The notes under the pieces were generated by a model. The model saw only the letters and a program-made list of their open reading frames with translations. It was not told the origin of the DNA and made no database searches. A stretch of 64,000 bases of DNA from the NCBI RefSeq assembly GCF_003073045.1, contig NC_037596.1, forward strand, positions 15,942,547 to 16,006,546, given 5' to 3'. The DNA comes from Pomacea canaliculata (Eukaryota; Mollusca; Gastropoda; Architaenioglossa; Ampullariidae). This document shows positions 10,463 to 63,506 of the stretch, piece after piece; the stretch's first letter is position 1; every line of letters starts with the position of its first letter. A program made the position numbers and the translations under genes.

Positions 10463-10881
10463 ATGACCACGTTTGATGCAGGAGAATGGTCAGCACATAG
10501 ACAGAGTAAAACTGCTGGAAAATAAAAGTTATTTGTGCTTGGCAGTAGTAAACTATAGATTATTGATGGATGAGATTGTTAATATACTTTCAGTATTCAG
10601 GAAGTAACATATGAATATTTAACATTGTGGTAGCATTTAAGATATGATCATTTGTTAAGTTCTAAAGTCCCATAAAAAATCGTCTGCACAGAAGCATAAT
10701 ACGAAATATTTGATCATGGCTATGCATTTAAAGTTATCCTCAGGAACAAAATAGAAACAATCTTTCACTTCAAGATGATAACATCACTGCTGTCGAGAAC
10801 GGAGTCAAAAGGTAGGTACATCTAATGAAAGTAACCTGTCCAACAGGGTCTTGCATTTGTTGCAGAGACCAGCAAGACAAC
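10463..10881 (-). CDS. Candidate late exons of SIDT-family gene A (tentative)
   Basis: Two short splice-bounded segments follow the last sure exon of gene A. Segment 10836-10881 has a strong acceptor (TTTAATTGTTTCAG), is 46 bases, continues the phase of exon 12427-12529 and reads CLAGLCNKCKTLLDR. The C..C..DR pattern recalls the family's juxtamembrane CxxxC...DR segment. Segment 10463-10514 has acceptor TTTTATTTTCCAG and donor GTAAGT and reads QFYSVYVLTILLHQ in one frame, loosely like a late transmembrane helix. Expected later exons, including the HDxxH-bearing one, were not found. These could be degenerate or chance exons. Confidence 0.3.
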
Positions 10882-11039
10882 CTGAAACAATTAAATTTTT
10901 ATATGACAGTGTGTGTATATGCTATGTATGTACAATTTAATGTATATTTGACTTTACCCTAATGTTTTAGATTTATCATTATTATAGCGATGTATGAATC
11001 ATTTATAAAGTGTAATATGAAGAGCCCAGAGAGTACGAC

Positions 11040-11420
11040 TTAGAGTAATCGACTTATAAACTCCTAAGGGTTGCATGTGTAGAGGGCCGGTAGTCCGGCG
11101 CTTGCTAGGCAGAAAATGCTGATGCATGCCAGTAAGTAAAGGTACGGATTGTGAAGACCCGTGTAGAAAAATAGATCTGTCTGATGCATGCGGGGAATAG
11201 TGGCTGATGCATAAGACCTGGTGCGAAAAAGAGACCGAGAGGGCAGAGCGGAGACGCAAGGACAGGGGAGAAAACTACGAAAGAGAAGGTGGCGAGACAA
11301 GGCGAACGCAGCCGTGACTGTAGATCTATCCGGATTAAAAGAATTGTGTAACTGCTGACAGGTTCCTACCTTTCTGGTTTGAGTGCTGGACTGTTGTGGT
11401 CACTGTTTGACTCCCCTCAC
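11040..11420. other. GC-richer island in intron, possible unrecognised repeat
   Basis: Base composition shifts from the AT-rich surroundings to GC-richer sequence with several GATGCATG phrases. Overlapping minus-strand frames (10999-11300) have no recognisable domain. It may be an old mobile element, but no termini or target duplication were seen. Confidence 0.25.
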
Positions 11421-12426
11421 AACGCACCACTTTGTTACACATGCATAAATGAAAAAGAGTGAGCAAATAAATAATTATTGATACCTGATGAACTATTTCA
11501 GGAGTCTGAGAGCAAGCAAAAGTGACTGTAAAAAAACTGTAACACCAGCGAAAACTTTATAGGCAACATTGATTTCATAATGGTAATAGACAATATATTT
11601 TGTTCTCTAGTAAAACTGAAAATGATATAGAGATAAGCCCTGACAAGAAAAAAGTTATGGTCCAACTGAGCAGCAACATTAAACTGGAGACAAACGATTT
11701 CCTTTAACTTGGAAGTATCCCACCTAAAGATGTTAATGGCTCGGCGCTACAAAGATATTCAGAAAGACTGCAACGACGGCCAGGCAAAACAGGGTATTGC
11801 TCAGCAGCAATGGCCAGCCTGACAGGACCAGCAATGCCACCCGTTTTATTAAAATCACAGGTTGTGTATCTTTAAGTATTCCTAACAATTGCCATATTTG
11901 AACATTGTTCATGTCGCGTCTCGTCGTTACTTCAATTCATCGTTTCTACATTCCAAGTGTTTCTAACATTCCATCAACTGTCTTCATCAGGGTCAATTGA
12001 TCATCGTCAGATCATCCCGGTAGGGACTGTACAGTCATCGCACAGTGAATTAGAACCCTAGCCATGTAAATTCGTGTTCATAGTAGGCCGACAAGATTCC
12101 TTTCCTGTCAGCAGTAAGATGACAGATCCATGTCTGATGACCCTTGAGATTACTCATATCACACTGTCTACAATCATAATTCAGGAAATCCTTGAACCTG
12201 TAGGCCACTTTTTTCATCCAGTGAGAAGATGCTCGCGGCGTTCAGGCGATGAGATAAACACATAAAAATTTTCACACCTCAAAATAAATATATCTTGGCT
12301 GATGTGGTTAAAACACATAATTGCAGCATTTATCCAATACATAAATATATAGATAAGCAAAGAGAGAGAGAGGAAAAGGAACACAGTGATCATTGTTATC
12401 TAGGTGAATAAAAGCATATAACATAC

Positions 12427-12529
12427 CTATGGAACAAAACATTGTAGAAATTAGGTAGCTAAACGGTGTGGTAAGAATCAGGCTCAGCACGCTATAAAAA
12501 CCCCAAAATCCAGCCTTGTTTTTAAATAC
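12427..12529 (-). CDS. Gene A exon 14 beyond the LINE
   Basis: Acceptor TATTTTTCAG and donor GTATGT bound 103 bases reading [19 protein letters not shown], matching the family's VxGKxxxxFWIVFSIIHI helix. The gene B counterpart (54250-54352) is also exactly 103 bases and has the same phases (0 in, 1 out). This shows gene A continues on the far side of the 4.7-kb LINE. Confidence 0.75.
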
Positions 12530-15500
12530 CTGAAAAATACACAAGTCGTTCCACATATGCATGAAATCAAGCAGGCGCGCGCGCACACACACACACATAT
12601 ACACATTCTGATCTTATAACCATATGATCAAATCAGATACTGGTAGACTTTTTTCACTAAAACGATAACCGCATTAAAGACTACTTTTCTACAATTACTA
12701 TAATTCCTTTATTTTTTGTTTGTTTGTTTCATTTTACTCTATAGGGTTTAAGAGCAGCTTTTCTTGCACTTCTTGCCGTCTGCTCGCTTTACGTTGCCGT
12801 GAAACCTGATATAATTTTGTCCTGTCATTCGAACTCATCTTCCAAATCCCAGTTTGACTTCTATTCAAATTTTTGTTTATCAACGTCGACATCAAATATC
12901 TGATTTAAGGCTTACGGCTAGACTGAACCTTTATTAAGAACACATTCACCTTCAAATTCAAAATGCAGTTACAAATTTTCGTATTCACTGCCCACGGAAA
13001 CATTGTCTTCCGTCGTCACAACAGAAGAACCTAACTAATAGTAGCCAGGATGGTAGCCCTATCCATTCATTACAGTAAAACACTATTATAATATTAATTT
13101 CATTATCCCCATGCGTCAGTTTGCTGGCTCCGCCAATCAACATGTAAGAAGCTGGTAGGTCCGTTTCATTGAAAACTGCCGGACTTTCATAGTCAAGAAC
13201 CCTTTATATATGTTACGGCCAAAGTCCGAAATCGGCCAAAGTGGGAACAGGCCGGCCAAATCGGGAAGTGACTAATATCGCATCACGTTGACCGGCCAAT
13301 GTCGATCTTTTCTAGGTTTCGGGATTCGGCCAGCCAGTTTGCGACATGGCATGGGGCGATCGGCCAAAGTCGGAAGAAAAAGGTCATGAAAGATTTTAGG
13401 TATTACAGTAAATGACCAATCTCTGTCATGAGTTGTTATAACAAGATGAACTTTTATGACATTTCGAATAACACAGCAGTTTGTTAGTTTTACATTTGCA
13501 GCGATTTGTTGTGCACTTGGTAGTGCAATTGTATCGAGTGTAGACTTGACCACTGGTCAGTGATTGTGAAGACGCGACGGTTCGTAGTGATTTTTCCTCT
13601 GTGCCCACGGATGCCAATGTGAGCAGTTTCTCGTGCAGAATGGCAAATTCACTTCTGGAATACAGTTGTTTGAGAGCATCATGTTCCTAGCTTTTGTATC
13701 AGCACATTGAATATTTTCCAGGGATTTCCCACCAGTTCGCGAGCTGGCCGGCCAAAGTAGCATATACACCCAGTACATCGGACATTGGCCCTACACCTCG
13801 GCCAAAGTGCAAAATGACCGGCCAAGTCGAGAACTGGCCAAACTTCGGGCTTTGGTCGTAATATATGCAAAACACTATTGTGAATCTAAGAAATGTCACT
13901 AAGATTTCAGATGTTTCCTGTCATTATTTTTGTTCTCTTATTACTTTAGGTCACACTAGACTGCAATTTATTTCTAGATATCTTGCTAAATATGGTGGCT
14001 GGTGGCATAAAGGCCTCTATAATGCCTTTTATAACGATGGGTATAGCTTAAGTGTCTCTGTTGAGAAAAAGTTCGGTGTGGGGCTTTTCGTAACTCGTCA
14101 CAACATAGCATAAAAGATAAAAGTTATTTACAAAATATGTATTTCAAGGTGGGCAAACCCAAAATCACCTTCACGTCATAAGTCAGATTCGTCTTCACCG
14201 CAGACGTGACTCTTGAAACACAAGCTACAGCTGTCTGACAATTATGATAAACAAGTTACAGCTGTCTGTCAGTCTTCCTACTATAATAAACAAGTTACAG
14301 CTGTGTGTCAGTCTGTCAGTAAGATCAGCACCATTCGCCACACTCTCTCTACACATGCTGTCAGCTCTATTGCCTGTATGTTTGCTTTATCCAGGCTTCA
14401 TTACACAACTCCTTGCTTGCCGGCTGCCCTGCATACCTTCTTCACAAACTCCAAAGGGCCAAGCTCCCTGCTTACAGTAAATAACGCACCCATCATTATG
14501 AACAAAGAGAGGGGGGAGTGCATGAGTGCAAACTTGTACACAAGCGCACACATGATGATAGTATCGCAAAATATGCTGATTTCATTCACTGTAATACGAC
14601 AAAGAAACACTTAACAAGAACGAAAATTCATTAAAAAATAGTACACTCTGTAATCCCAATCACAACAAACTATGTATTATTCAGAAGATATTAAAATTTA
14701 TAATTATATCATGGTTTGCAAGTGTGCCATAGAAAAAAACCACTGTCAACATTTAATTAATGCCTTTGTTTTTTAGTAGTGTTTCGTTTTGTTTTATTTT
14801 TTATAGACCGAGGCCTAGATTAAAAGAAGCATAGCTTTTGCTTATTCTGTTACGCTTGAAAAAACAGAGTTGACATTCGTCTCTCTCACTCTCTGCTTCA
14901 TTACCTTTTTTGTACTTTGTAAAGGATCGCATCTCAAGCACTGGGCCGGGTGAAGAGATAAAGAAAAAAATATTCTTGTCTCCCCTTAGTAACTTTTTTT
15001 AAGGGGCGAATGCCCTCTTCACCTTGGTTCCTATGCTACTTTAGGTTACTAATATACTACTATATATTCACATTTTATGATTTTTGTTAATTAATATAAA
15101 CATAGGTTACTTAGGGAAAGCTTTTATTATAAAGACAAGATTATTTCCGACTAACACCACTAATATTATCAACGGTCAATAAATAAGCTGCTTGCAAATA
15201 GGCATTTTTTCACTGACTATAACAGTTTTATAGAACCCAAAAGAACTGTAAGTCACTGACTGGTATGCGGACGGCCGGGACACACCAGGCGAGACTGTCC
15301 TGATGTCAGAAAACAATACAGACCAGCGACCGGACCCACTGGCCACAGCAAAACCACCCCCGGGCGAGACGACAAAGGGCCAAGCACACACGGCCGACTC
15401 TCACGGTCCTCGGCAAAGTCAAGCTAAGCCTGCCTCGAGGGCTCAAAACCTTCGAACCAGCCAGACGAATCTACTCTAGACCTCCGACCAGCCAGCCAAG

Positions 15501-18500
15501 AAAGCCAGCACCCCACCCCCACAACCACCCCCACTCCCCTCACCACCTCCACCCTCAACCTTCACCCCTACCACGACAAACCCCCGCCAGGAAGGCTCCA
15601 CTACAACACCCCAAGAAGCGCCATCAACGCGCGGCCCCCGAGGGGCTCTGTGCCTAAAAGGACTCCCCTCCACCCTTGACCAAGCAAGACAAGCTATAGC
15701 CAGGAGAGCCCCGCCGCACGCCCCCAAGAAGCGCCACCAACGCAGCTACCGAGGGGCTCTGTGCCTAAAAGGACTCCCCCTCCACCCTTGACCCAAGCAA
15801 GACAAGCTATAGCCAGGAGAGCCCCGCCGCACGCCCCCAAGAAGCGCCACCAACGCAGCTCCCGGGGGCTCTGTGCCAAAAGGACTTACATCGACAACGT
15901 AACGACAGACACAGACCCAGCAAACGCAGCAAAGGAGACGCGCCATCGCCCGGACGACGACTTGCCACAATGATCGACGATTGACGACACTATGTGGCAA
16001 TAGCATGTGTTACCTGTTTCAAAAGCGCCCCTCATTCAACGTTACAACAGTGGAGGAGATTTCAGAGGAAGACTATCGCACCTGTGTGTTCCTGTGTTTT
16101 ACTTCCTTTCGGATAACTGTCGCCACCGCACCTATGTGGACAATAACTCTACTTGGCCTAGACGCCAACAACGGCCCCTGCTTTCAATGACTGGCGCGAC
16201 AACCCAACTGCGCAGTGAGTATTCTTCCACACAACACAACACAAAACGCCCAGCACTATAACTCCATGCACCTCGCCACACTGTTACACTTCTGCCCGGG
16301 ATACATCACACTCCACTCGTAAGCAACAAACGGCGACCGGAATGGCGCATATTAAACCCTCAAGTGCAGAGGACTCGGTACACGACGCCCAGCGCACTTC
16401 ACCAACCCACATACAGAAACACAACATATGACATCTCTTACTTCAGGAAACACACATAGATTCCTTCTGCAGATTTAGGAACGAGATCGCCCAGAAACTC
16501 GAACGGCAAATAAATATGGTCGCTCACCACCAAGGGGTAATTTGGGGGCAGCCCTGTACATAAACAACAAAGTAAGATGCAGAAATACACCACTTTCCTC
16601 GTAGGTTACCCCGATTTCCTCGGGTAGTACATAACAGCCACAGTAACGATCAACGCATGCACGGTCGATGCAAGTTATCACCAACATTGCCGTACGCCCC
16701 CCGTGCCCCCCAACGACCTGCGCGAGTGTAAAAACTTCTTCAAAGATTTATACCCACTTTTAGCCAATCTCACCCGCAAATCCTCGCTGGAGGATTTCAA
16801 CTCGCATCGCTAACCCTCACGCATTGGACAATAGTAGGGGCAAGCCGAGACAGGCAAGGCTGGTCACGCCGATACTATCGGCAGCGTAAGGGACATAGAC
16901 TTGTAGACGCATACAGACTCCTGCACCCCAACACGACGAGCGTTACATGGCATAGCTCCAGGTAGGGCTGTAGACTTGAGCAAAATCTTCATCTCTCACA
17001 GCTAGCCCAACACGCACTCACGGCCGAACACATAGTGTGCCCTTACTCTGACCACGACTATGTACAAATAGAACTCTCCACACGACAAACCAACGTAGGT
17101 AAGAGCTTCTGGAAATTCAATACATCACTCTTGCAAGACACACAGACTATACCAGTAAAATCAACACCCTCCTACACTTCGCCTCCTAACAAGCTACAAG
17201 GCCCTCCCTCCTAGACTGGTGGCACCGACTAAAAGAAAGAATCAAAGACATAACAATCCAACACAGCAACGCAAAGCAAAGCCAGAACAAGGAATTAGAG
17301 CCCTCGGTGCACAATACCGAATACTAGAACACAAAAACTTAGCTGGAATGAACACCATCAAAAACAGACTGCAACACTACAAGGGGAGAAAACAACAGGC
17401 GCCCAAATCCGGGCTAGAACACCGCTAGGATCCGCTCCAGAAACACCAAGTAACTTCTTCTGCCAAAAAGACTCCAACGGGTAAACGCAAAACTATAGAC
17501 CAACATCATATAGGTCAAGACGGGCAGCTTCGAACAAGACCGAGCGATTATAGCGTCAACTCCTTCAGGCCTTCTACTCACAACTATAACAGCAGAGACC
17601 ACAGACCCCGAAAACAAAAACACCTTCTACAAGACCTCCCACAACTAGACGGCGAGGCGACAGAAAACTTAGGCACACCCAATAACTTTATCAGAAATAG
17701 AAAATGCCCTCAAGGGCATGAAACCAAACAAAACGCCAGGCTCTGACGGCCTACCAAAGAATTCTATCTCAGCCTTCCTCAAACACCTTGGACCCATACT
17801 AATCAAAGTATACACCGCAACATACGAGGCTGGTCACCTGACAAAAACGCAAAAAGAATCTTACATCACTCTAATCTGTAAAGCCCCACAACCCCAACAA
17901 TGACAAACTACAGACCCATATCACTCCTGAAACAGACTACAAAATACTCACCAAAACACTCTGCATCGCATCAAACACACCTACACCAAGTCATCACAGC
18001 AACCAACATGCGGAATCCCGGGTAGGTCTATAACAAACAACTGCCACCTAATAAGAGAACATAATAGAATACTGCAACAACAGAGGCTACTCCAATCTCA
18101 TCTATCAGTAGACCAGGAGAAAGCATTCGACAGAGTCTCACACCAATACCTCCTGCAAACCCTCCAAGCCTTCGGCTTCAACACACACTTCTTACATTGG
18201 ATATCCACAATATACACAGACATACGAAGCAGTGTCATCGTAACCAAACGTCTCCGACTCTTTCAGAATAACCAAGGTCTGTCAGACAGGCTGCAGCCTT
18301 TCTCCCTTGCTATACATTCTATGCCTTGAACCTGTCCTCATCAAAATAAGGCAAGACAAACACATTAAGGGATCTCCATACCGGGCAAACCGGAGGAGTG
18401 CAAAGTGTCTGCATACGCAGACGACAGCACTTCTTTCTCAATAACCACCAGTCAGTCAGGAGAGTGATAAACACTTCACCAGTACAGTAAGGCTTCAGGC

Positions 18501-21500
18501 GCCAAACTAAAGCATAACAAAAACAAAAGGCATGCTCATAGGAAAATGGAGGAGAGACATCGACAAGCCCAGACATTACATGGACGGACAAACTGACAAT
18601 ATACGGGGTGCCTTTCGGTGACGTCACACAAGACGACATTTGGCACCCAGTCCTGACAAAGATAACTGCAACACTGAATCTCTACAGACTCCGCCGCATC
18701 TCACTATATGAAAAAGCCAACATCATAAACACACAGTCTTGTCAAAACTGTGGTACTATCCTCAGTATTACCAATACCACCACACTACACCAACACAAAT
18801 AGAAAGGGCCATCTTCCGTTTTGTATGGAACGATGGTCCGAACCAATTAACGGAAGACCCTCTACCTGCACCCCAAAGAAGGAGGGATAGGACTGCTGAA
18901 CATACCCTCCAAGACGGAAAGCCACATCCTGGCCCAGGTGACAGGACTGTTCGGTAATGACGAACAGGACTGGACACACTACGGCCACCTATGGTTGGGG
19001 CTAGACCTGAGGAGGAGGTTCAGCACTACCCTTCACCAACAAGCATCCACACAGCACGAAGACATACCCCCTTTCTACAGGCTTGCCGCACAGCTCTCAA
19101 CAACCTTCTCGCGGCAGACCCTACTTCAGATCTGAACTCAGACACGAAAACGAAACTCTATATCAAGCACTTCTAACCAAACGCACTATACCCCAAGAGT
19201 ACTCCAAGCTTCCCACGAATAAACTTCGCAAACACATTCAAACACCTTAGCAACAAACACGTAGACCATGCACCTTAGACACGTCTTTCAAAATTGCAAC
19301 GACATCCTCCCAGTCGCAGACACCCTACACCGCAGAGGCATAACAAAACAAAAGATGTGCGCCTTCTGCCAGAACAAAAGCGAAACAACAGAACACATCT
19401 CTTCCACTGCACGCACCTACAGCAAACACACAAGCAACTAGCACACTGTTGAACAAACTCGCAAACACAGCACCCACACTAGCCCGCATACGCTTCAACA
19501 CCCTCCCACCGCCCTATCGACAGCATCCCAAACAGCAGCAACCATCGTTCTCACAGAGTACAAACAAGCAATATGGACACTAAGAAACAAAGCACGCTCC
19601 ACAGACTCATTGTATCACACCCAGATAGCAGACGCCTTCACCTCGAGGGTCAACGCCAGATTGAAGAAGGACAAAGACACTTTTGCAGAAGAGCACTACT
19701 CGACTGTGGGTAAGCTAATGTGAAAGCAACAGAGCGAGAGGGGGAAATCCTCCTCGCCGCACCCCCGACGCAACTTGAAAGAAGATTATGTGAAAGCATC
19801 AAATGAACAATGACTTTTCGTAACCCAGATTTCAAATATGTGAAAAGAACTCTTGTTTTTTTTGACACTTGTACATTCTTGTTAATATTTTGTTTACCCT
19901 TGTTTTTTAATGTTTGAATAAACAAACATGGAAAAAAAAAGTCACTGACCATTCCCAAAACAGCTAAGAGGGTTATCCAAGCCATGAAGAAGAACAGTAT
20001 GTGTGCTCTGGGCTGAGTACTAGGCCGTTGGAACTCAAATATCTTCATGATGCATAAGCACAGAATAACGTACATGAAAGTGGTGTCTGTTAAGAAACAA
20101 ATCACTCATGCGTCCACACACACACACATGCGTCCACACACACACACACACGTACGTTTCAGTTTCAAAAGTCAAATGCTTAGTAAAGTGTGTACTTCTA
20201 GTAACAGCTTTCAAGACTTTACTATCACTTCTTGCAGTTTTATCTATCACTTTCTAGAGGCATTACACAGCAGCCTTGTTTATTATTTTAACATGACTAT
20301 ACAGAGGAAACTGCACTCATTTCATAAACTTAACCAAAGGTAAGAGTTTTCAGTACATCAACATCTTTCTTAACTGGATTTCCATGTTTTTCTAAAAGGC
20401 ATTGCTAGTATGCAGACTTGTTTAACAAGATGTTACTCAAGCGACTTGCAAATATGTTTGTAAGCAGGCTCATCTTAAAATTTATTCAATGACGTGTTTT
20501 AGCTGGCTTCTTGTTTTGTCTGTTAGCTGAAACTAACCAAACTGGTAATTATATTTGGTGGGGCAGAAGTGGTAGATTGCACTCATGATGCCCACGACCA
20601 TGAGTGCTACACCCATGGCATACATCAACCCATACTGCTTTGGAATCCACTGGCGGTTCTCCTGCATATATGCTTCATACCGCCAACTTCTGTACAGATC
20701 AAACAAGCAAAATATTCTTAAAGTGAACGGAGTAGCATACACCATAAATGAAGAATACTTGTATCATTGAGGTAAAAGTTGTGAAAGACATGGATGTTTA
20801 CTTCTGACAAGCGACAAAAGAATGCATACATCCGAACAGACTACACCGAGGTACAATGTGTGTGTGTAAGTTTAAAGAGAAAGAAGGTGATGTATACATT
20901 AACATTTTACCCTCTATACACAATTCTTACCTCATTTTCACAATAGCAATAAAAAGAAGACCCAATATTAAATAGCCAATGTTACTGAGGATGTTGTTGA
21001 AGGCACTGAATTCCAGTGCTCCAATCTGATAAGGGAAAGCACAGTCAAAGTTGTAATAACACAAATCTTCATCCCCTGTTTGGCGTAAGGTCTGAAATGT
21101 TGGAAACAAGCTTACATAAGTATGCGTGTATAACTTCTTTCTTTTTTCATCACATGTTCTCTCTCTCCCTCACACACACACATATATATATACAAAACAC
21201 AAGTATTTAAATGGCGTTGACACAGGCACAACAATGTGTTTTCCTTCAACCAACCTTTTGATATGAAAAGACCAGCTGTGCTGCAGGTATGCCATAAAAC
21301 AGTGCAACAGCAATGAGTATCCTTAACAAAAGAGAAAACGGTGAATCTTTATCCAAAATTTTAGTTAACTACTTTCTGATCTACAGACTACAAAATACAT
21401 ATAAAACAAGTAAACCTTCTACTTCTGGCTTTACATTTTTAAAATAGTGCTGAAATGTATTGTTGCTTCAAAATAGCTTTTATCAAGTGTATATGTGGAT

Positions 21501-24500: not shown

Positions 24501-25303
24501 GCTATGTGTTTTGTACAGAACATTTATCTCTTTGCAATAGAATAGGTGTAACAAATATATGTGGGTTATTATATAGGTTTACGTCTAGAATAGGCATGTG
24601 TTAGTGCATACATACTTTTGTAAATGTACAGTAATCTTGAATCTTATCATCTGTATACTTATGTTGACCTGCACATATTTTCAGGGCATGCGATTATTTA
24701 TGTATGCTGGTTATGACAATAAAACTGACAACAACAACTTTGATAGGGATGATTTTTTCCCTTTTACACAAGAACTGCACATTTATGGAGGTTGATTGCT
24801 ATACTCACTGTATATTACCAACGCACCAAAGGATTAAAAAAACTGCAGAAATGACGATGTAGATAATTATGATATGGCCGATTTTTTTTTTCATCTCTGA
24901 TCCTAAGTAACAGACAAGTGATAAAGTTGACACACTTATCTACTAAATAATGCTCAAATAAAATAAAAGTTGCAGTGCTAACAAAAGTATATAAGTGTAT
25001 ACATCTGTAATCATACAAAAAATAATCTCGTCTACAAGAAGTAATTTTTTGCACTTATTAGACAAAATTGAATGTATGTTGCACTTTTTTGTTTCTGTCA
25101 GCTTTAAATTAAATAACGAACATAATTATAACTTGCTAATCATTGGCAACTGTCTAAAACTGTTTCAATATAATTACAGTGACAAATCATTGATGGTAGT
25201 GAAGTGGCTGTCAAACATTTACTTCTAGTAGGTGCTTTTTTCCAAGTGCATCGCTAATAAAAGTTTAGAAAAAGCCTTTTTGCTGACGATTTTCTAGATA
25301 TTC

Positions 25304-51039: not shown

Positions 51040-54000
51040 TCAGAAAATAAACATTGTGTTTCCAGGCCTATTGTCCAAGTCACCATCTAAAGTCAGCAAA
51101 ACCTGAACAAACAAAAATACTCCATAATATTTAATTGTACTATGGAAAAAATATTATTAACACATCTTCGTTAAACTAGGTAACTGACATCACATAAAAA
51201 ATATCCTCTTAACATGTTTGTCATATTTGTGATTTGGTTTGTGCGATTAAAGTTCAAAAATGAAAATAATTTATAACCATCAGTAGCATGCTTTGCTTAG
51301 ATAATAAGTTCTCTTTTCATGCTTCCCACATGCTAAAAAAATGGAGTGAAATGGCAGATTGCTATGCCACTGGATACACACATTACAAAGATAGTAGAAT
51401 GTGCACAAAATATCATTCCCAGTATTAAAATATCTATGTTCGCCCACTCCTCACCATGAATGAAAAGAAGATAGCACCAGCAGACAGGAAATGCCAGACA
51501 TCATGATAATCATAGAAGTCCAGCAACACACATGGCTTATTTTCCTTCCGGGACTCTTCTGGTGACAGCTGAAATCATACGTACACGTTTGTAAAATGTT
51601 GGTTGGTAAAAAGCAACAAGAAAAAAGAAGAAAAAAGACAAAAAAGAAGGAAGAAGACAAATTGGCTGCATCAAAGCTTGGAGACACTTTAAATTTAGTT
51701 GCATGTGGTAACTTAAAACATCGTCCACAATTGAGGTCTAGACTATGCTGGATGTGCCAGGGTCCACTTAAGTAATTAAATGGGGCTCGTGTACCAGCTT
51801 TTCTAAAAGAATCCAATCGTAGACAAACGCCCATCGAATGTCTTAATAATGTTGGCAAGAAGTGACACATCCACGTCTTTAGCGTCCCTCTATACCTTAA
51901 TAATATATCAAAGTATTACAAATAAAGGAAGAAGCAATAAAGTGTTGATGATATACCTCCCATGAATACTGTTTGATAACAAAATAGGAGATAGCCAAAC
52001 CCCACAAGATAATAGCAGCCAAAATGAAAATGGTGCATTTGCTGATCAGTCTAGGAAACCAGGAGCGTAGGTCGATCCCTCCATCACAGCGCTAAAGAAC
52101 AAAGAAAGTCACAAAAATATACATTTAATGAATGGATCCAGACACATATAATACCACACACACACTTCGCTAGCAAATAGCATGCCGTTGTCACATAAAC
52201 AAGTGACAAATCTTAATGTTGTGTGTGAACTAAAACAAATTTGACCATGTAACAAATTGTAACATGAACTCGTTATTTGTACAGGCACCTTCATACACTA
52301 AACTTTGTGAGAAACCAATGCAAAGAGCAACGATTCACAGCAAATTTGGCATATAACTGGAGTGTCATTTCAATGATGTTTAACATTAATTACAAACCTT
52401 CAGAATGATATGCAGCAGAAAATAGAGCAAAAGGTTCACAAGTAAGATGATTAGTAAATAGGTCGCAAAGTCCGGTTTTCGGATTATGGCACCAACCACT
52501 GCACTAGGAAAGAAATGAAACTCATCAGGGTTAGGAAAAATGTGTACCTACAGCAAGTTAAAATTAAACAGTTTTTGATATATATCATGTGGTAAATCGC
52601 CCAAAATTAAAGTCTAGACTACAATTTGCTATACTATGACAACCAGTTAAGAAGCACCGCGTACAAGTTTTTATGGGGAACTTATGCAAGGTAGATGGCT
52701 TAGGTGATCAGAAGAGCCAAGATAGAAAGCTAAAAAAAAGTCAACCAATCAGGTATTTCCTTATTTTTGAAAGTAGACGAAGTATACATGATCAACCGCC
52801 ATGTCGAAGTTGGTTGCCGGTTACTCAATTCAATTTGGATTTGTACTTTGTTGGCAGCTTCATAATAAAAATCGGCGCTATTTTTGTTCCTATTAAACTC
52901 ATATTTTTCTTTACCCAGACAGTATGTAAACATGGTTATTTTCATTAAAGCTGTTTGAGATAGTTACAATTTCACTATTTCTTTGTAACTGAAATTTTCA
53001 GATTTAAATGATTTAAAATGTCAGTCTCTATTATGTTATTCCTACTTGAAAGTTCTCTTGTCTTTCTTTAAGCTAAACTGGTTCTCCTAGTTTGCTTAAC
53101 CTCCTGAAACTAGTTTAGATGAGAAATGTGAAAGCGAAAGGACATGTCTGTATTATACAATGGGAATCATGTTTGTGAAAAGGATAAAAGGTGAGATGTT
53201 ACAAATATGGTATACACGTGTCTCAACTTACAGCATCACGTTGGAAACACCCATAAGCACAAGCCAAAACTGTATGCAAAAAACAATATTTTGATCACAA
53301 ACCATTTTATAATAAGAATGGGTGTTTACAAATATAAAAATTAATTAAACATGACAAAATAATTATACATTTTAAATTAGTTTCCTACAGTTTAAAAACA
53401 CTTTAGTAACGTGTTTCTCTACGATAAATAAGATTTAAACTAGATACAAAAGGAAACATAGTCCCCATATGTCCTAATTTTATATTAAAATGTTCAAAGC
53501 CATACTTTTTGAAAAGTATAATAATAATAATAATAAACGACACAAATTTACCTTATGTATGCACTTCGTAGGACAGGTACAAGGATAGCAATTACAGGAA
53601 TTACAGCAGTTTTGATGTTGATCGCCTGTGTGGACAGATTCATCTGCAGAAAGTAAATTGTTAGTTGGCATTATTTGTGCTTAAAATCCATTCACATTCA
53701 AATGCATGTTTAATCTTACTCTGGCTCACTCTGTTCAGTGGGAGGGCAAAGTTATTGAGGACAAGCATCAAAATTGTAAGCTATGCGGGTGGACAGTAAC
53801 ATACCAAAATACCCAGAACAAGCTACTACACAACAAGCCTACTGATAATCGACAACAAATGAGTAAATAATGGCATTCACTGACCGAATTTATTAAGGAA
53901 ATCTGTTTCAATTCGCTAACAAGAAAAATGTATAATCAGCATTTCCTTTGAAGGCAGCCGCCCTCGATGGTCTTTAACGACTCAATCAGACATGTCAGCC

Positions 54001-54352
54001 ATGTTATTTGTTATCTTGTCTGTTTTAGAATGTTATGGACTCCTGATTTCTAAAGCTTTTAGAAGTTAGAAGAACGACTATACTTGAAACGATCACCATA
54101 ATCTAATGTCAGCCATTACTTTCACTCAGCTCTAATAACTACCCACAGGACTAAACTTTAATGTTGCTGACATCAAATCACCTGCCTGATGTGAAAGAAA
54201 CAATCATAAAGTTCAATACAAAGGTACATCCATGTGAGGACCACCATACCTTCGATGATTATTCCTTTATAAACCATGTATCCGATCACACCAACACAAA
54301 TTATGTACAGAATTGAAAAAACGATCCAAACAGTCTTGTGTTTGCCAGAAAT
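51040..54352 (-). pseudogene. Gene B 3' exon block: last TM helices and C-terminus
   Basis: Seven exons, mostly open. 54250-54352 reads KHKTVWIVFSILYIICVG. 53552-53643 is an extraordinary Cys-rich stretch (QNCCNSCNCYPCTCPTKC). 53232-53269 is a 38-base micro-exon, FWLVLMGVSNVM. 52398-52503 reads RKPDFATYLLIILLVNLLLY. 51957-52091 reads CTIFILAAIILWGLAISYF. 51455-51567 carries LLDFYDYHDVWHFLS (the CREST HxxxH) in a frame displaced by one base from its entry. 51040-51102 reads VLLTLDGDLDNRPG and ends MFIF-stop, the family's canonical C-terminus. Without the -1 shift this end would be fully normal. Confidence 0.85.
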
Positions 54353-55027
54353 CTGAAACACACATTCGCGCAAGCACAAAACCATACACACACATGTATG
54401 CACACATACATACTAATGTATTTATAATACTAATAAATACATACATACATCTGTGCAAAATCCATCTAATCCAGCAAATAAAAAGTAATCTGTTCACGTA
54501 ATAATTCATCAACAGTAAACACTGAGACTCATAGTATTATCTTTTTAACATACTGTATGAATACAGCAACATTCTAACTGTACATTGTACTCAGAAATTG
54601 GTATATGGGGTGGGGTTAAGTCAGCGACTGTTCCTAAAATGGTTTGGGTTTATGGCATTGGCAATTTAACTTTTGAGCAATTAGGAATGAGACCAAAAGG
54701 TCACTATGAACAAGGTGCTTACACAAAAAGAAGTTTCGCATTTTTCTGCTTTCCACGTCTTTGTGACTATTTTGTGATCTTGTTCAGCGCATTGAGTTTG
54801 CCTTTTGGCTGAGATATTAATAAATTATATATATATATAATTAGTAACTGCTATGATAGGACAACTAGCAAACGAAAGGGATACAATAACCCAGTAAATG
54901 AAGGTCCATGGTGGCTCTGAGTTGTGATGCTGCTCTTCCCGCCTCTCCTCCTTCTAACATTCCCATAACCAATCACCGAAAACGAAATAATACAAATAAA
55001 ACAACAAAAAAATGGTTCGACACTCAC

Positions 55028-56238
55028 CATTCCCAGAACAGCAATACAGGTGTATACACCCATACAGAAGTAATCTGTGTGCTTTAAGATGAGCGTCTGG
55101 GTGGCGAATCTCGTAAATCTTCAGAATGCAACAGGAGGTAATAGCATACAATGAAAGAGGTGTCTGTGGAACCAAAATAGCATAACTGTTTGCAAACATT
55201 TATAAAAAAAAAGAGATATAGCTTGATTTAGTATGGCAGACTACTAATAGTTAACAATTGATGTATTTTCCTAACTTTTTTTTTCAATTTTCTTTACTTT
55301 TTTGTAGTCTAAGTTATTCGTGATTTCTTCCCAGAGCTTTAGGACTTAAATAGCACCCATTATATATTCAAGGATGTGAATTCTGACGCGCAGCTTTAAA
55401 TATCCTTTCTTAACAAAATGACTATATTTTCTATCTGAATCATGTAAACTAAGATTTTCACAAATTTTTTTTCTATTGTATATCACATGCTCATATACAC
55501 ATATTGGCCAGAACACGAACCAAAACTGGTATTAGAGAGGTGGGGCAGAGATGGTTAGCAAGCACTCATAACACCCTCCACTATGAGAGCGAATCCCATG
55601 GCATACAGCAAGCCAAAATGTTCTCGCATTCCATTGTGATTCTGACATGTTGGATTCTCTAATACATGCCTAATATGCTGGAAATTTCTGAAAAAAGAAA
55701 AAAAACGCAAGGAGTGACAAAATAAACCATACTAAAGCATAATAACACTAAATAATTGTAGCAAAATATATATATTTACTTCTTTACTTCTTGACATTTA
55801 GTGGGTGTGCTTGCGCATTTATGTGGGTATATACATAAAATTTACAAATTGGAGTGAGTGAACTAGAATAAAAAAATCACACCTTCACTGCTTACCTCAA
55901 AAACACTAAAATGAGGAAGAGAATACCAAGGAAAATATAACCTATGTTGCTGATGATGCTGTTGAAAGAAACGATTTCATATTCTCCCCAACGCATTGGA
56001 TAAGCACATTCAAAGTTGTAATAGCCACAGATCTTCATCGCCGTGTCATTCATTTTCTGAGATCATGCAGAGAAACAAAACAAACATGAATGATATGTGA
56101 ATGCATGATTTATTCACACACACTCACACTCACACACACTCACACTCACACACATTTTCTTCTTCCACTAACCTTTGAATATGTCAGACAGCTGCTACCG
56201 CAGGTAGACCATAAAAAAGGGCAATAGTCCCAAGGATC
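55028..56238 (-). pseudogene. Gene B transmembrane core with stops and shifts
   Basis: 56173-56238: GTIALFYGLPAVAAV then TGA, with one base fewer than the gene A exon (66 versus 67). 55896-56056: GYYNFECAYP, SFNSIISNIGYIFLGILFL, intact and 161 bases like gene A. 55521-55687: HFGLLYAMGFALIVEGVMSA then Cys-stop where YH is expected. Comparison with gene A shows +1, -2, +1 indels that sum to zero. 55028-55163: the homology switches frame twice (after DTSF and before TCIAVLGM). Confidence 0.82.
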
Positions 56239-56590
56239 CTTACATAAAAAAGACAGTCTGATAAAATTTTCCTACAAAAGTAAGTATAAGGATTTCTTAC
56301 TGATTACTAAATACTTCTATGTGACTGGCACTATTATCTTTCTACTTGATTTTATCATGCGTGGTGGTGTTTTAGTAGGGAAAGTGCCTCCACCTCAAGT
56401 TAGTTTCGCATAGTGTGGGATTGGGATCTTGGGGATTGGGATATGGAGAAGGGGCAACACACACGTAGGACACGAGCTAATATACTTATACACATCTACA
56501 TATGTACGAAATATGTAGATAAACACACATTCCCATGTACTTATACACATAGCGCTCACACACACACACACAGAAAAAAGGTCCACTAAC

Positions 56591-57532
56591 CATAGATAGA
56601 CTCTGGGAGCTTCGTTGTCACTTTTCTTACTAACAAACATGTCTAATGGAGCCTCCACTGTCTGTAAAGAATTAAAAAAATCAAGACACACATGCACATA
56701 CACAAATAAAAATATGATTAGTTTCTGTATGTTAGGTAGTAATGTGGGAAAGGACATTGCAAAGGCATCAATAAAAGTCCTCTTCTTACGAAAAACTGGA
56801 TTTTGTCTAAAACTGCTTGTTTTCATTTATGTATTAAGACCTGAGGCAGTTCTGCACGTCTCAACTGGTTGCCCACTTTAGGTATACAGGTAGGTCACTT
56901 CAGAAGGCCTTGTGCAGTGTTAACTTCTACACTTAGCGTTTTCGTGAAGAATCCTGATCAACATTATAACTGAAACCCACTTGTGTAGTTTCCTGGGAGT
57001 GTTGGTTTTAAGACAAAATAAACTTTCTAACAAATATTATGATCATACTTTTTTTTGTTCTTAAAACGGAAAGCAGAATTCTAGTTCTGGTAAAATTAGA
57101 AAAGCTGTATTTTTAACACAAAAGTTCAATTTAGAAATGTTGCAAAGAAAATAAAGAGCAAAAATACATCATGCAAGATGTTTGTTATAGTTCATATCTC
57201 CTCTCGGCTGTAGCATGATTACAGTCATATCCTTGCTTCAGAGATGCCATGGTAATATAAGCTAATAAAGTGTGTATTTGTTTTTTTTAAATATCTTTAC
57301 ATCTCTAATATCTTCACCTGGTTCCTTGTGACATCTGCTTCACGTTCATCCACATGTAAGTGGGCAACATCTGATGAGTCACCTTCACCATCAATGTCCT
57401 CAATATTTCTAGTGTTGCTAGCTTGGGGATCCATCCCAGGTGAGCTTGAGGGCTGGCCACTACCCAACTGGGAAGTACTCATGGTTTGATAATTTGTAAG
57501 TTGTGAGCTCATGAGTTGGTTTATAGACGTGT
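56591..57532 (-). pseudogene. Gene B cytoplasmic loop exons
   Basis: 57318-57532 (215 bases) encodes a Ser/Gln-rich then acidic loop (SQLGSGQPSSSPGMDPQ; IEDIDGEGDSSDVAHLHVDE), expected for the long cytoplasmic loop between TM1 and TM2. 56591-56661 (71 bases) reads VEAPLDMFVSKKSDNEAPRV and ends at the Trp that starts TM2, splitting that codon exactly as in gene A. Both are open and in phase with each other (0). Confidence 0.65.
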
Positions 57533-57599
57533 CTGTAGACACAAAATGAGCTATAGGTACACCGACTAATGTCAAAATCACTTGGTCGACTTCTGTCAA

Positions 57600-59395
57600 T
57601 AGTATTACACAACAACTTACACACCTGTGAGTACTTTCAAATCCAATCTAAATAACTACCTCGCAAATCGTCAAGCAAAATATATCAACATTAACTGCCT
57701 CCTTTGTACTCTGTCTTATGTTAACTTTTGCTTATGTCGTTGGAAGAACATTTTCCTCCAAAGCATGTCTTTTTTAAAAGGTTTGTTTTACTTCATGTTA
57801 CTTTTTCTTCGATAACGTTTTATATCTGCAGGAAATACTGCAACATTTATCTAAATATTTTGTCCTGTCTTAACCAATAAAATGTCATTATTATAGTTGC
57901 ATATTATATCTAATTTGCAAATTCAGATTAGATACACCAATTTAGAGTCATTATAAGGACAGATATTATTTTCTAGAAGAATACCAAATGAGCACGTTAA
58001 TTTTTCTCCTTAATACCTCCTATGACAAATCTGCAGGTCTAAATATAGTAAGGTTGACATTAAATATTTAGTATCTAAAGTAGTATTTAGTAACAATAAT
58101 AATACCAGATGTTGTCTGTTCTTGACCACAGAATATAATCCGGGCACATTTCCATTTACTTATTTTCACTCTAGGAAAGGGATCATCTGAAAAATAGTGT
58201 TCAAGCATTTTGATATATCACAGTAAGTCGAAACGTGTTTTCTAGTGAATAACACAGGACGTGTTTCCTCCATAAACATCCATCTGATGGTGTTCTCTTT
58301 TTTTCCAGAGAGGTCAATGTTTGACTGATGACATTGTACACATTTCTAGTAAATAAATGGTGAATTAGATTTTCGTACAATGAATCGTGCTAGTTAATTC
58401 AGGAATAAATTTGTCAACAACTGCCTAAAAACTATCATGTAGATTGTATAACTGTAAAATTGTACACGGTTAAAGAACACAACCAAGCTAGGCATATACT
58501 GCTTTAACTATATCCTCGGCTATTTTTCAGCAACTATCTCATATTTAGTGATGTGGGTGGGCTTGGTGTTGTATATGTGGGGAGAACATAATTTGCTTCA
58601 GCCTACCTAAAGGACAGTACTGGTCGAATAATGTATAATATAACTCATAAGCAGGTTGCCATGTTAACCACCTGATAAATGGAACTGTGCTAAAATCCAA
58701 CTACCACATTAGCAATATGCTTCCTATATGTTTTTTTCTTGTAATCATTTATTATTTTAATCTATTGTAACAGCCTTTGTTTTCTGTTTTATTTTAGGAG
58801 TTTCTCATGCTCTTTGCTTCTTTGCCATAGACTTATTATGTTCAAATTAAAACTGTGCTCTCACTTTTAATACCACAATGCTTTGGTTGTAAAGAACTTC
58901 TACATATGATTTCAAAGATTTCTACTGCCTTTTACATTTTCTATAAATTTTGACCTATTACCGCTAGGTAAGCAATCGCCTTCTGTTTAAATAAAAACCG
59001 CGATAACATAAAAAATGAAATGATCGACATATTAATTCACTTTCGCCTCACCCTCAATTCTGCTGGCATATTGCTGGGAGTCGACTGCAATTATAAAATT
59101 GTAATGTGACAGAAAATAATCAACAATTCACTTCTACCCTTAAATATTGTTAATCTTGCCGTACCTGTTATACATAAAGTCATATTTTTTTATCTGTATG
59201 ACTACACACGCATGGCTACAATGTGATACTAGGACACTTGAGTTCGTACCCTGGTGTTTTTCTACTATACTCGTCGTCGTCATCAACAGTCTTGACCTTT
59301 TGTACTGATATCTGTATTGGTATTTTATGTCGTAGTGTTGATAATATGTGCAAGTTTTGCATTAGTGCAAGTACTTTTGTAGTACTATTTAAGAG

Positions 59396-59426
<31 letters not shown>

Positions 59427-59900
59427 CATCATATTTATGTTACATTTCTGAAATCCTGTTAGGAAATGTAATATTTTTTTTGTTGCAATGTTTTATAGTA
59501 AAAGATGATAACAGATTTGGTGATAGTCACTTTCTTGGGTATAGAGATAGAGACTTCTTGCTACTCACCATTAAAATTCATGCAGAAAATGCAGAAAAAA
59601 AACTCCCAAATACTACATCACAATCTGAAGAATAGAGCAAAGGAGACTATTGCTGCGACGTTTTTGATCCTAAGAAACAGATTACATATCATACCATTAT
59701 ACAGTATAACATAAAAAAATGAAATAAAAGTCACAGTTGGTGGTGGTGTAGGTGGTGTGTGTGGTTCGACTATTCACTTATTCGACTGTTTTTCTCTTTT
59801 TACTTTTTTTATTGTTCGACTAATTGTCACCCTTGATAAAGATTCATGGAAGAAGCTGGTACGTGAATAAAAACATTACTAACTTCCTCATTTGGAACTA
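57600..59900. other. Gene B intron region
   Basis: AT-rich; the TM1 exon of gene B should lie here but was not identified. A 35-base segment (59053-59087), splice-bounded and reading DSQQYASRIEG, resembles gene A's small loop exon. A (CAT)n tract sits at 59397-59431. Confidence 0.35.
59397..59431. repeat. (CAT)n trinucleotide microsatellite
   Basis: A run of CAT/ATC units with one CAC interruption. The same repeat class occurs in a gene A intron (25.3 kb) and in the intergenic region upstream of gene A (35.5 kb). Confidence 0.9.
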
Positions 59901-60059
59901 CTCTTACCACAGAAAGATCTCTGTGAAGTTCGCTATTTGCTACATCCATCTACACCTTAATGACTGATGATAAATACATGCTTAAGGACTAAGCGTGCTG
60001 CCTCAAATGCAACAATCATTTATATGTAACATTATTCTCACTTTCTTATTACCTATAGA

Positions 60060-63000
60060 CAGATTCTATTGCACACTAAGACTGAGCAGAGGTTGCATCA
60101 AGCAAAGAACATCTGCAACATTGGACTTGCCAGGTACAACACATGAAGGCTTATGCCATAATAGTCGCTTTTCTGTCCACACACACACAACACCGAGAAT
60201 TATTATTTGCCATAGCAATATCCAGATAAATGCAAAATTCAGTAAATGACAATTACTTTTCAACAGCAGATTATATAATATAATGTGCATCATCACCTGT
60301 ATATTTACCTTCGATTATAGATAAAAATAAAGCATAGCTAACACCGCAAGTTATTCATCTGAGTGCTTCCTTCCTGTAAAATCTCTCTCAAATATTATAT
60401 AGTTTTCCCCCAGAGCTGTAACATCGTTGAGGAATCAAATTCAGAATGAGCTAAAACTAATGCAACAAAACAAACCGATATAATGATAAAAATAACTTTT
60501 TTTAACCAAGCCACCTCATAAGTATATTCAAAAAGTATCCGTAAAAAATGTACAACAAATTCTATTATAATTTTTACAATACATAACACTTCTGCTCTTT
60601 AATTTTACATATGCAATGTGTCATACCCGAAAAAACCAACCATCACTTACCCACACTACATCGCAGCCTGGTATCATAAGTGTATTTTTTCCAAACTTCC
60701 AAATCTCGTCCAAAGATCAACACAGACACTACAAAATAAGAAATTAAAGACATACTTTTGCCCTTCTTTATTCCCAGAATTATGAAGCATACATAAATTC
60801 GACATCCTTCTACTCTTTGCTTTTTTCTGTTGATTTTCCTTCATGTCAAATGTTAAAAGTATATAGTAACATTATTTGGCCTATCGTAAAAGCATAAATG
60901 AATACATACATCCAAACAGAAATGTAGCTGAAACAATCATTGCTTTCCTTGAACACAGATTATAAATCTTATGGTAATTATCTCTACAGAAAAGGCAATA
61001 CTTATATGATAAAACTTAACGATATACATGCTGTCCAAACTGCATAAGACAAAAAGAATATTGTTGGCACGATATCAGTTGCAACCTTCATTTGTACTGC
61101 AGTCATAAGACATAACTTGAAAATATTAATGCATCCTGGATTAAAGAAGGAAATGTAAAACAGGTGCAACTTGTTACAATTGAGCAGGGACTGACTTTCA
61201 ACATCATTATCTTATACCTTTAGTTATTTATGTCGTAATCAGTGAATTAAAGCATAGATGTGTTAAGCCTGAAATATTTTAATTTTAGTGGAAAATAAAT
61301 GTACTATGCCTTTAAAATATTATTCTTCTTTTAATTGCGTTTTTACATCTTAGTGGTACTTCTCTAGTTTTATGTGTAAAACCTGTATGAGTATAAACTT
61401 CATAACAACACTTCTGTAAAGTGTAGCCATGCATATAACAACATTTACAACCGTTATTGTTTACGAGATAATTCACAGAGCTCACTATCTGATGCCACAA
61501 TTTAACAAGACTACTTCAATCATCCCGGAAAGGTTACATTCAACGTTCTGTATGATGCGTCACGTTTTTGTCCACCAGTCTTGCTAAAACATTGTTAAAA
61601 GAATCCATGTATAAAGTTTTTAAATACAAATGAAACAGAATATTTAATTAATATGAAACTTACCTATACTTGGGTCATGAATTGTTAAAGCACCGTATTG
61701 CTCTTTTTCTATAAAGATATGTAACATTTTATATTAATGCTCTTGTTATATCTTGTAATATGCATGCATATTATCAAATAATTATTTTTTGACAAAGATT
61801 ATAGGTTACACTTAGCTTAATTGACCAAACGCATAGTAACCATACTCTCATCTCATGACTTCTATTAGCCTTCTGTCCTAGGACAACGAAAATCAATCAT
61901 AAATATGCCTCATCGTGCTTGGCACTGCTGGTAGCCAGAAAATGGATAAGAACATGTAACAATTTACAATGATAATATAATTTCTTCAATGCACAGGTTT
62001 GATTAGAATTATCTACAGCAGACACAACAACACTATCGTACACACACAAGATCCAGTCAGTCAGTACTCTAGAAAACAGAGATTTACGATCATCGAAAAA
62101 TTTAATGCTGCTCTTTTTATAAGAAATAAAAAACTTGAGAAAGAGAGATCTGTCAATACCCCCCCCCTTTATTCCACCCTACTTCTTCAGCTTATATCTC
62201 TTTATTGCATTGGTGTCTACCTTAACGATGAAAGGAATGTATTCAATAATCTCAGGAAAGTTTTACACTTACCCATATGTTGACCGGGAACAAAATTATG
62301 TGAAATTATAGTTACACCTGTGCGCCGCACTATGGCGCACCGTGGCTACTAACCAAACTCGGGACTCCTGGCCGAACTTGACGTTCCGAGACGGGAGAGA
62401 CTGCATCGCCGTAAATCACTTAGAATATCAAGACACAATATGTTGATTAAAACTACTTAAAACAAGCTTATACAGAATCTTCCGGCTTATCACATTCTTT
62501 TGAGGCTCCCAGACAACCGGAACTTCCCAGAGCTAAGCGTTGGTGAGACAGACTGCAGTCCACCTACCACGTCCATGTAGATGTTATAATTCACTTACTC
62601 AATACTCGAATCAGACAGATGTGCAGTCAAGTTAAGTTGACTATGTGTTAACATGGGCCCACTTCCAAAAAGAGTTCTGATGCATGTCATGTTTCAGCCT
62701 ACTGTCTCATACAAAGAGTACGTCCATAATGGACTCAAACTAAACTGTATACCCAAACTATTAATGAATTAAAAACAGTATAATTATCAAACAGCCACTT
62801 TACAGTTTCACCAATTAATAAAAATTTCCTTTTAAATCTAACTATAAAATACTACATAAGGACTATCGGTATTCCTGAAAGAATATTATAAAAATAAGAA
62901 CTTCCACACAGTCACTAGTGACAAATGAAGGTCAATCATCCTACTACTAAGATACCGTCGGGCTGTACGACTGAAAATCAATGTCGAATTTTTCAAACCA

Positions 63001-63506
63001 TCAACATAATGTCTATACACCGCTACAAGTGGCAACCGAACGAATAGCGTGATTATTTGGACACAAGCATTTTAGGGCGATCATCAACTGAACACTCACT
63101 CAATTATCACAACTATTGCCAGTCTAAAAAATTCCATGTTTAACTTCAATTGGTGTTGAGTAAGGTGTTTAAGAAGACACATAAATATGTTGACAAAAAC
63201 AGGGTTATTATATTCATATATTCTCTTACTGAGGTCAGCGCCAGACAACATACAAATACAAGAAAGCACTAGATAAAACAAGCACAAATATTCAAAGACT
63301 TTGACATATTTTATTAACCATTAATAACAGCTGATGAAAATGAACAATAATACAATTAACAATATTTTGTAATCAGATACAAATTCACCACCACTTACAC
63401 CAAATTCAATGTATAAGGAACCTGCCAAGACATAATTCCTTTGCCGACGACACATAAAGGGAAAGTGACTGAGCCGCTTGCTGAAGAAGAAACGGTATGG
63501 TGTTGT
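60060..63506 (-). pseudogene. Gene B ectodomain exons, decayed
   Basis: 63399-63506 keeps FPLCVVGKGIMSWQVPYTL, the VVxxxGxxSWQVP signature, but in a frame displaced from the exon start unless an internal acceptor is used. 63100-63228 is open and ends at the same codon phase as gene A exon 3. 60651-60728 aligns base by base with gene A exon 28477-28560 (TGTCTGTGTTGATCTTTGGA versus TGCCCTGTGTTGGATCTTGA) but indels break its frame. The segment ending at 60172 starts KSDYYG like gene A's KSDYHR and soon hits a stop. The SPSQPQY exon was not found. Confidence 0.6.
60729..63099. other. Gene B intron region
   Basis: No confident exon. Splice-bounded short segments at about 61671-61714 and 62274-62318 have no recognisable family sequence. 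GC-richer patch at 62320-62590 of unknown nature. Confidence 0.3.

Follow-up and report, generated by a model that had tools for sequence, protein, structure and literature searches.

Two genes of the SID-1/SIDT family lie on a stretch of the Pomacea canaliculata genome (the window, 64,000 nt, in whose coordinates positions are given here), and the question they raise is whether they are one open and one decayed copy left by a tandem duplication, as an initial annotation had it. Both are situated on a single contig bounded by two 100-N joins. They are encoded on the minus strand, agree in exon order and intron phases, and have a kelch-like gene between them, a layout which that annotation had described correctly:

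9390–64000, strand not applicable: contig with copies A and B, between N runs at 9290–9389 and 64001–64100
12427–32663, minus: SIDT copy A, 13 exons, from the signal peptide to a 103-base exon (PF13965, spliced alignment, sequence)
41746–43902, minus: BTB-BACK-Kelch gene between A and B (Pfam domains)
51043–63506, minus: SIDT copy B, from exon 2 to the stop codon (Pfam, comparison with C)

Each copy runs off one end of the contig and is therefore incomplete in the window, the 3′ exons of A and exon 1 of B being missing. In all, six SIDT loci or partial loci (A–F) are found on the chromosome, F being the most complete. A search of Rfam gave no match at gathering scores, and one B query gave none against a plasmid collection.

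The family assignment, originally made from motifs, was borne out by profile search. The joined exons of A match PF13965 (SID-1_RNA_chan; gathering score 28.7) with E=4e-89 and 300.2 bits, and the joined pieces of B with E=5.5e-38 and 3.5e-39 (131.3 and 135.3 bits); the transmembrane (TM) half of F matches human SIDT1 at 6.4e-138 and its ectodomain, the exons of which are the counterparts of A exons 1–6, at 6.9e-48. The motifs lie on the minus strand as implied, CYYNF at 21047–21061, NNILSNIGY at 20972–20998, YGLMYAMG at 20611–20634 and LLDFYDYHD at 51500–51526. In A, a signal peptide (judged by eye) and an ectodomain precede the TM domain (exons 1–6); of the B ectodomain only the error-rich exons 2–6 are on the contig. 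The zinc ligands His563 and Asp574 (human SIDT1 numbering) are part of SxxYH...D (PMC11137008), and A has the corresponding residues, while the SxxYH exon of B, which lies in the error-rich part, is interrupted by an apparent stop. The ligands His791 and His795 belong to HDxWH, seen in B as HDVWH; no HDxWH exon of A was found on the contig by spliced alignment, an insensitive search which also missed the 103-base exon. Of the eleven TM helices typical of the family, only a part can be traced in the cluster copies, since no equivalents of the 74- and 47-base exons of F stood clearly above controls in A, C, D or E. Introns are retained in A and B, not lost as in a processed retrocopy, and both are multi-exon genes predicted to encode SID-1/SIDT proteins with an ectodomain and multiple TM segments. 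Homology suggests that a complete member would act as a CREST-type, zinc-dependent lipid hydrolase, and it may in addition bind or pass dsRNA.

The exons of A, two of the 13 with tentative borders, are as follows:

32409–32663, minus: exon 1, start codon and signal peptide (by eye)
32105–32226, minus: exon 2, ectodomain (spliced alignment)
31235–31396, minus: exon 3, ectodomain (spliced alignment)
28957–29101, minus: exon 4, ectodomain, Pfam positions 1–37 (spliced alignment)
28477–28560, minus: exon 5, ectodomain (spliced alignment)
25534–25691, minus: exon 6, ectodomain (spliced alignment)
24809–24934, minus: first-TM exon, approximate borders (spliced alignment)
22379–22475, minus: cytosolic-loop exon, tentative (by eye, likeness to the F loop exon)
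21255–21321, minus: 67-base exon (sequence)
20931–21091, minus: 161-base exon with CYYNF (motif, spliced alignment)
20538–20689, minus: exon with SAIYH, that is, Ser and first zinc His (spliced alignment)
19950–20086, minus: 137-base exon, completes the zinc Asp codon (sequence)
12427–12529, minus: 103-base exon, last found (by eye: acceptor cag, donor gtatgt, length, phase)

Copy A, described as open, is thus a partial gene whose last exons are off the contig. Its boundary had been drawn at 10463; no SIDT exon was detected below 12427 by spliced alignment, in the same insensitive search (best score 96, compared with 107 on the other strand and 88–124 in five controls). That A was truncated in evolution and really ends after the 103-base exon is improbable: it would agree with the lack of 3′ exons above controls both at 9.4–12.4 kb and beyond the gap, as far as 10 kb outside the window's left end, but the searches concerned were insensitive, one of them having missed the 103-base exon, and a 214-base stretch at 9474–9687 speaks for a different end. 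This stretch has one other match in the genome, which stops 216 bases short of the 106-base exon in E; the contig itself stops 84 bases past the stretch, so the exon of A that would be recognised next is expected just off the contig. The idea that A and E are one gene split by scaffolding was largely rejected, as the last 300 bases of A overlap E with 17% mismatch (46/272), too high for one locus unless that end of A is also raw sequence; the indel ratio of the overlap, 0.50, is near the natural range of 0.31–0.44, which leaves the split gene a weak possibility.

For copy B, the near-identical locus C, 0.7 Mb away, served as reference for counting indels and substitutions; the exons compared were:

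60531–63569, minus: region of exons 2–5, 14.5% small indels relative to C (alignment to C)
57318–57532, minus: cytosolic-loop exon, one substitution and no indels relative to C in 215 bases (alignment to C)
56173–56238, minus: counterpart of the 67-base exon, +1/−2 relative to C (alignment to C)
55896–56056, minus: 161-base exon, one −1 and one +1 relative to C (alignment to C)
55521–55687, minus: exon with an apparent TAA stop, +1 then −1 relative to C (alignment to C)
55028–55163, minus: exon with +1/−2 relative to C (alignment to C)
54250–54352, minus: 103-base exon, identical to C (comparison with C)
52394–52498, minus: counterpart of the 106-base exon, identical to C (compared slice has one extra intron base)
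51957–52050, minus: 94-base exon (alignment to C)
51455–51568, minus: exon with HDVWH (two zinc His), open (motif, alignment to C)
51043–51102, minus: last exon and stop codon, identical to C (comparison with C)

At first sight, small indels in 10 of the 16 exons of B aligned to C, one of which creates the TAA in the SxxYH exon, suggest a genuine pseudogene that arose as a duplicate of C and then decayed through frameshifts and stop codons. The ten exons concerned, however, are all at or above 55 kb. The loop exon is free of small indels, and so are the five exons of the clean part below 54.4 kb, which are all open, without an indel in 477 exon bases, and identical to C in protein sequence. 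Small indels between B and C follow the distance to the contig end rather than the exons, numbering 47 in 4874 aligned bases at 49.4–54.4 kb (~1%), 226 in 5774 at 54.4–60.3 kb and 461 in 3101 above 60.5 kb (about 15%), and in the two error-rich tiers they are about as frequent in exons as outside (3.7 vs 4.0% and 12.5 vs 15.3%). Substitutions, in contrast, stay at 0.5–6%, and are not as frequent in exons as in introns, the pattern looked for in a pseudogene, but rarer in exons (0.5–2.7%) in all three tiers, with 4/477 exon against 192/4397 non-exon bases at 49.4–54.4 kb (p=2.2e-5), 5/968 against 123/4806 at 54.4–60.3 kb (p=1.1e-5) and 12/447 against 163/2654 above 60.5 kb (p=0.0026). Such an indel gradient, together with substitutions that are scarce in exons, fits long-read error at a contig end lying over a constrained gene.

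Comparison of small indels per mismatch, all with one aligner, points the same way. The ratio is 0.44 for A-D (5 blocks), 0.31 for D-C (11 blocks) and, for B-D, 0.31 in 3 of the 4 blocks below 54.1 kb and 0.50 over 5 blocks at 55–58.4 kb; for B-C at 60.5–63.6 kb it is 2.91, with 351 deletions to 77 insertions. Simulations gave 0.11–0.33 in three cases with few indels and 2.25 in one with 15% indels. The outcome is aligner-dependent: at 60.5–63.6 kb, MAFFT with default costs puts substitutions at 27.8% and the ratio of small indels to substitutions at 0.10, which would look like old decay, whereas blastn, with 301 mismatches and 298 gap openings, agrees with the cheap-gap aligner. When changes were polarised with D, the error-rich part (3273 columns) had 49 small indels unique to B, 12 to C and 19 to D, and the part further from the contig end (3892 columns) 11, 14 and 17, respectively. 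Unique substitutions numbered 89 in B vs 47 in C at 55–58.4 kb, an excess that would suit decay of B, and 83 vs 104 in the clean part. It may be mainly the C branch that accounts for the constraint seen in the B-C comparison, and exon 1 of C itself carries an apparent frameshift. Weighing these observations, we regard a pseudogene as very unlikely, and the description of B as decayed was not upheld; its stops and frameshifts would mostly be consensus errors growing toward the contig end at 64000, that is, uncorrected long-read error probably overlying a gene whose substitutions are under purifying selection.

As to how the copies are related, the equal exon lengths on which the proposed duplication was based are real (161/161 at 20931–21091 in A and 55896–56056 in B; 103/103 at 12427–12529 and 54250–54352). 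Descent from one intron-bearing ancestor is supported by the shared intron phases and by a 12-base insertion in the 161-base exon common to A, C, D and B; in F, which is without it, this exon has 149 bases. A and B are not nearest relatives of one another: B is closest to C, and A to D in the ectodomain and to E at the 3′ end. The view that B arose most recently from A by tandem duplication was rejected, since B is nearer to C and A differs from C by a dS of 0.62 in ectodomain and 0.92 in TM exons. A would represent an older branch of the cluster, and B a close relative of C, be it a duplicate, a converted copy or an uncollapsed allele. In the last of these cases, the contig is an uncollapsed haplotype that carries B as the second allele of C, and the window contributes a single gene, A, instead of two; this is a real if lesser possibility and compatible with our preferred explanation. 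The cleaner tiers differ from C by 0.5–0.8% in exons and 2.6–4.4% in introns, and the authors of the assembly give 1–2% heterozygosity and a filtering of alternative contigs (PMC6129957); against this, homology stops at window 48328 / C7:16,715,378, and past the breakpoint the contig continues into the kelch gene and A, whereas D occupies this place in the C region, A and D differing by 14–22% (five MAFFT-aligned blocks). Judged from the sequence, it is very probable that A and B are contig-cut members of the SIDT cluster, the lesions of B being mostly contig-end error, with B close to C and A older.

The neighbouring locus D appears to combine an ectodomain (and first TM) of A type with a membrane half of C type, and looks like a domain-swapped chimera of an A-lineage ectodomain and a C-lineage membrane half, the apparent switch from A to C type falling at C7:16,723,636–16,724,247. 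Its membrane exons give a dN/dS of 1.01 against C, at a dS of 0.086 (175 codons, four exons; the 3′ rows C-D, C-F and D-F left out), as expected if the halves were being recombined into new specificities. We tentatively propose, as a rather unlikely scenario, that unequal exchange in the apple-snail cluster swaps ectodomain and membrane hydrolase half between copies. As a whole, the locus is an ordinary expansion of the SIDT family plus an artefact, with a mosaic locus beside it.

The initial reading implied the loss of a SIDT copy in the snail lineage, with a putative bearing on systemic RNA uptake; with the false pseudogene removed, the assembly shows more SIDT copies, not fewer, and the sequence is consistent with a conserved gene overlaid by contig-end error and with a gain of copies. 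The cluster is relevant because P. canaliculata is a pest of agriculture (PMC6129957) against which dsRNA might be considered as a means of control, and because the domain-swapped gene, if confirmed, would allow RNA-facing and lipid-facing halves to be tested separately.

Among the records listed in a literature search (titles and abstract starts, with few subscription journals, hence weak), none dealt with Pomacea SIDT genes or a gastropod SIDT cluster. Features in common with human SIDT1 and SIDT2 are an ectodomain, a multi-TM domain, the SxxYH, Asp and HDxWH zinc motifs and, in F, the C-terminal LLTLDDD...PVF. A–D carry a four-residue insertion in the CYYNF exon that neither F nor human SIDT1 has; in those TM exons that were compared, identity to F is 49% for A, 53% for C and 56% for D. 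The dsRNA channel SID-1 of C. elegans belongs to the same Pfam family and is matched by F at 6.6e-34, a far lower score than F reaches with SIDT1/2. Additional SID-1-like copies are described in Caenorhabditis and Tribolium, some of the worm copies being without conserved residues (PMC3146951); the snail expansion differs from these in forming a cluster on one chromosome with an apparently domain-swapped copy, D.

Pieces of both SIDT copies in the window, A and B, match the profile PF13965 (SID-1_RNA_chan), and all five motifs from which the initial annotation had recognized the family, or forms of them, were found (SxxYH as SAIYH). The equal exon lengths reported for A and B (161 and 103 bases) were verified, and the family assignment was judged right, as was the layout, a tandem pair with a kelch-like gene in between. 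Gene models came from a self-written spliced protein-to-genome aligner and inspection by eye; the borders of the first-TM and loop exons of A are approximate. A profile search of the genome (440,159,624 bases in 24 contigs; the window is C7:15942547-16006546) gave 27 exon matches with an E of 0.001 or lower, of which 26 fall on C7 and one falls on C4. Those that were traced were sorted by homology into loci A to F.

SIDT loci and the intervening gene (plain coordinates are window positions)
32663 (start codon) to 12427-12529 (103-base exon), minus: SIDT copy A, 13 exons modelled
63506 (exon 2) to 51043-51102 (exon with stop codon), minus: SIDT copy B
41746-43902, minus: BTB-BACK-Kelch gene
about C7:16,697-16,713 kb, plus: SIDT locus C, by homology
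about C7:16,718-16,740 kb, plus: SIDT locus D, by homology
C7:16,782-16,786 kb: SIDT locus E, a 3′ part; score 249 versus 79 on the opposite strand, three frameshift notes
C7:19,786-19,828 kb: SIDT locus F, by homology

An isolated SIDT match resembling the HDxWH exon (67.7 bits) lies on a different chromosome, at C4:21,443,726-21,443,935. Exon 1 of C (C7:16,697,101-16,697,339) has an apparent frameshift directly after the signal peptide, beside a run of A bases.

Copy B had been regarded as decayed, which is not borne out. Introns included, the alignment of B with C runs at 93% for 11 kb and then at 77% for 3 kb; along B, substitutions vary little (196 in 4874 aligned bases at 49.4-54.4 kb, 128 in 5774 at 54.4-60.3 kb, 175 in 3101 above 60.5 kb), whereas small indels do vary (47, 226 and 461 in the same bases): a 300-base step contains 0-7 of them below 54 kb and 35-49 above 60.5 kb. 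With one aligner throughout, natural paralogs of the cluster show 0.31-0.44 small indels per mismatch and deletions about as frequent as insertions (68/86 and 128/121), and B against C at 60.5-63.6 kb shows 2.91, with 351 deletions versus 77 insertions; sequences simulated with few indels gave 0.11-0.33 (n=3), and with 15% indels 2.25 (n=1). Three-way MAFFT counts gave 49 small indels unique to B, 12 to C and 19 to D at 55-58.4 kb (3273 columns), and 11, 14 and 17, respectively, at 49.7-54.1 kb (3892 columns); unique substitutions were 89 in B versus 47 in C in the former stretch and 83 versus 104 in the latter. For 60.5-63.6 kb, blastn opened 298 gaps and counted 301 mismatches over 3478 columns, and MAFFT at default costs gave 27.8% substitutions, which counts against reading B as erroneous. 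Selection separates decay from error, because a pseudogene would relax substitutions and indels alike, whereas error adds indels blindly. All three tiers have a lower substitution rate in exons than outside them (from 49.4 kb up: 0.8 versus 4.4%, 0.5 versus 2.6% and 2.7 versus 6.1%; Fisher p=2.2e-5, 1.1e-5 and 0.0026), whereas in the two error-rich tiers the rate of small indels is about the same in and outside exons (3.7 versus 4.0% and 12.5 versus 15.3%). The clean-tier exons of B contain no indel in 477 bases and four substitutions, none altering an amino acid; the TAA in the SxxYH exon (55521-55687) and the indels at 55028-55163, 55896-56056, 56173-56238 and above 59 kb all fall within the error-rich part. 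The A/B pair is an ordinary part of the SIDT cluster, viewed through a poorly polished contig.

According to the golden apple snail genome paper (PMC6129957), the assembly was made from PacBio reads with smartdenovo and Pilon, and comprises 745 contigs (440,071,717 bases), Hi-C anchored to 14 chromosomes. N runs at 9290-9389 and 64001-64100 place A and B on a single contig of 54,611 bases, which lacks the first exon of B as well as the 3′ exons of A. The stretch 9474-9687, near the 3′ side of A, has a single other match in the genome (C7:16782146-16782352, 76%), which stops 216 bases ahead of the 106-base exon of E; 84 bases separate the stretch from the contig end. At 5431-5863 lies an imperfect direct repeat whose period is about 134 bases, with an open frame in which Ser, Thr and Asn are abundant.

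Among A, C and F, dN/dS values are 0.34-0.48, ectodomain and TM halves alike, so the exons of A look constrained. An intron of A harbours a LINE-type reverse transcriptase (26741-28466, minus; RVT_1, 5.6e-25); its relatives lie at 45.2-46.6 kb and around locus F. Intronic as well is 12700-19600, GC-rich and strongly skewed, with a 113-base tandem repeat (15609-15886) and, by eye, plus-strand reverse-transcriptase-like frames. The 161-base exon measures 149 bases in F; its four additional residues are shared by loci A to D but missing from F and human SIDT1, so A to D probably descend from one duplicated ancestor. BTB-BACK-Kelch genes adjoin SIDT copies in both blocks (41746-43902; C7:16,742-16,744 and 16,789-16,792 kb); their frames are only about 32-42% identical at the protein level and therefore far older than the B-C similarity.

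The sole point judged worth following is locus D (28042-50570 of the C region). In the ectodomain exons D is 82% identical to A (dS 0.23, 221 codons) and 63% to C (dS 0.67, 217 codons), whereas in the TM exons it is 51% identical to A (dS 0.96, 170 codons) and 83% to C (dS 0.086, 175 codons; dN/dS 1.01, resting on few silent changes). Since blastn blocks of at least 200 bases align D with A over 28042-33636 and with C only from 34247, D looks like a mosaic of an A-like ectodomain and first TM and a C-like membrane half, with a switch point apparently confined to some 600 bases of the intron that follows the first-TM exon; a chimeric assembly is a possible source of the same pattern. Were the mosaic natural, an A-like and a C-like gene recombining by unequal exchange would yield D plus a separate A-like 3′ part, which E seems to resemble; a search for upstream exons of E found none (score 117 versus 128 on the opposite strand).

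Human SIDT1 is described as a dimer with zinc ligands His563, Asp574, His791 and His795, and it is reported to have ceramidase activity and to bind dsRNA (PMC11137008). In A, the first two CREST motifs retain their Ser, His and Asp (PMC3146951); a search of the 54,611-base contig found no HDxWH exon for A, and HDVWH is intact in B. The complete members (F, probably C) may hydrolyse lipids and possibly handle dsRNA. Caenorhabditis and Tribolium are known to have additional SID-1 copies (PMC3146951). Locus F yielded 18 exons, running from the start codon through IPVF to the stop codon; a single frameshift note coincides with a guessed linker in the query, and the first-TM exon was located separately. 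The TM half of F matches human SIDT1 at 6.4e-138, and its ectodomain does so at 6.9e-48.
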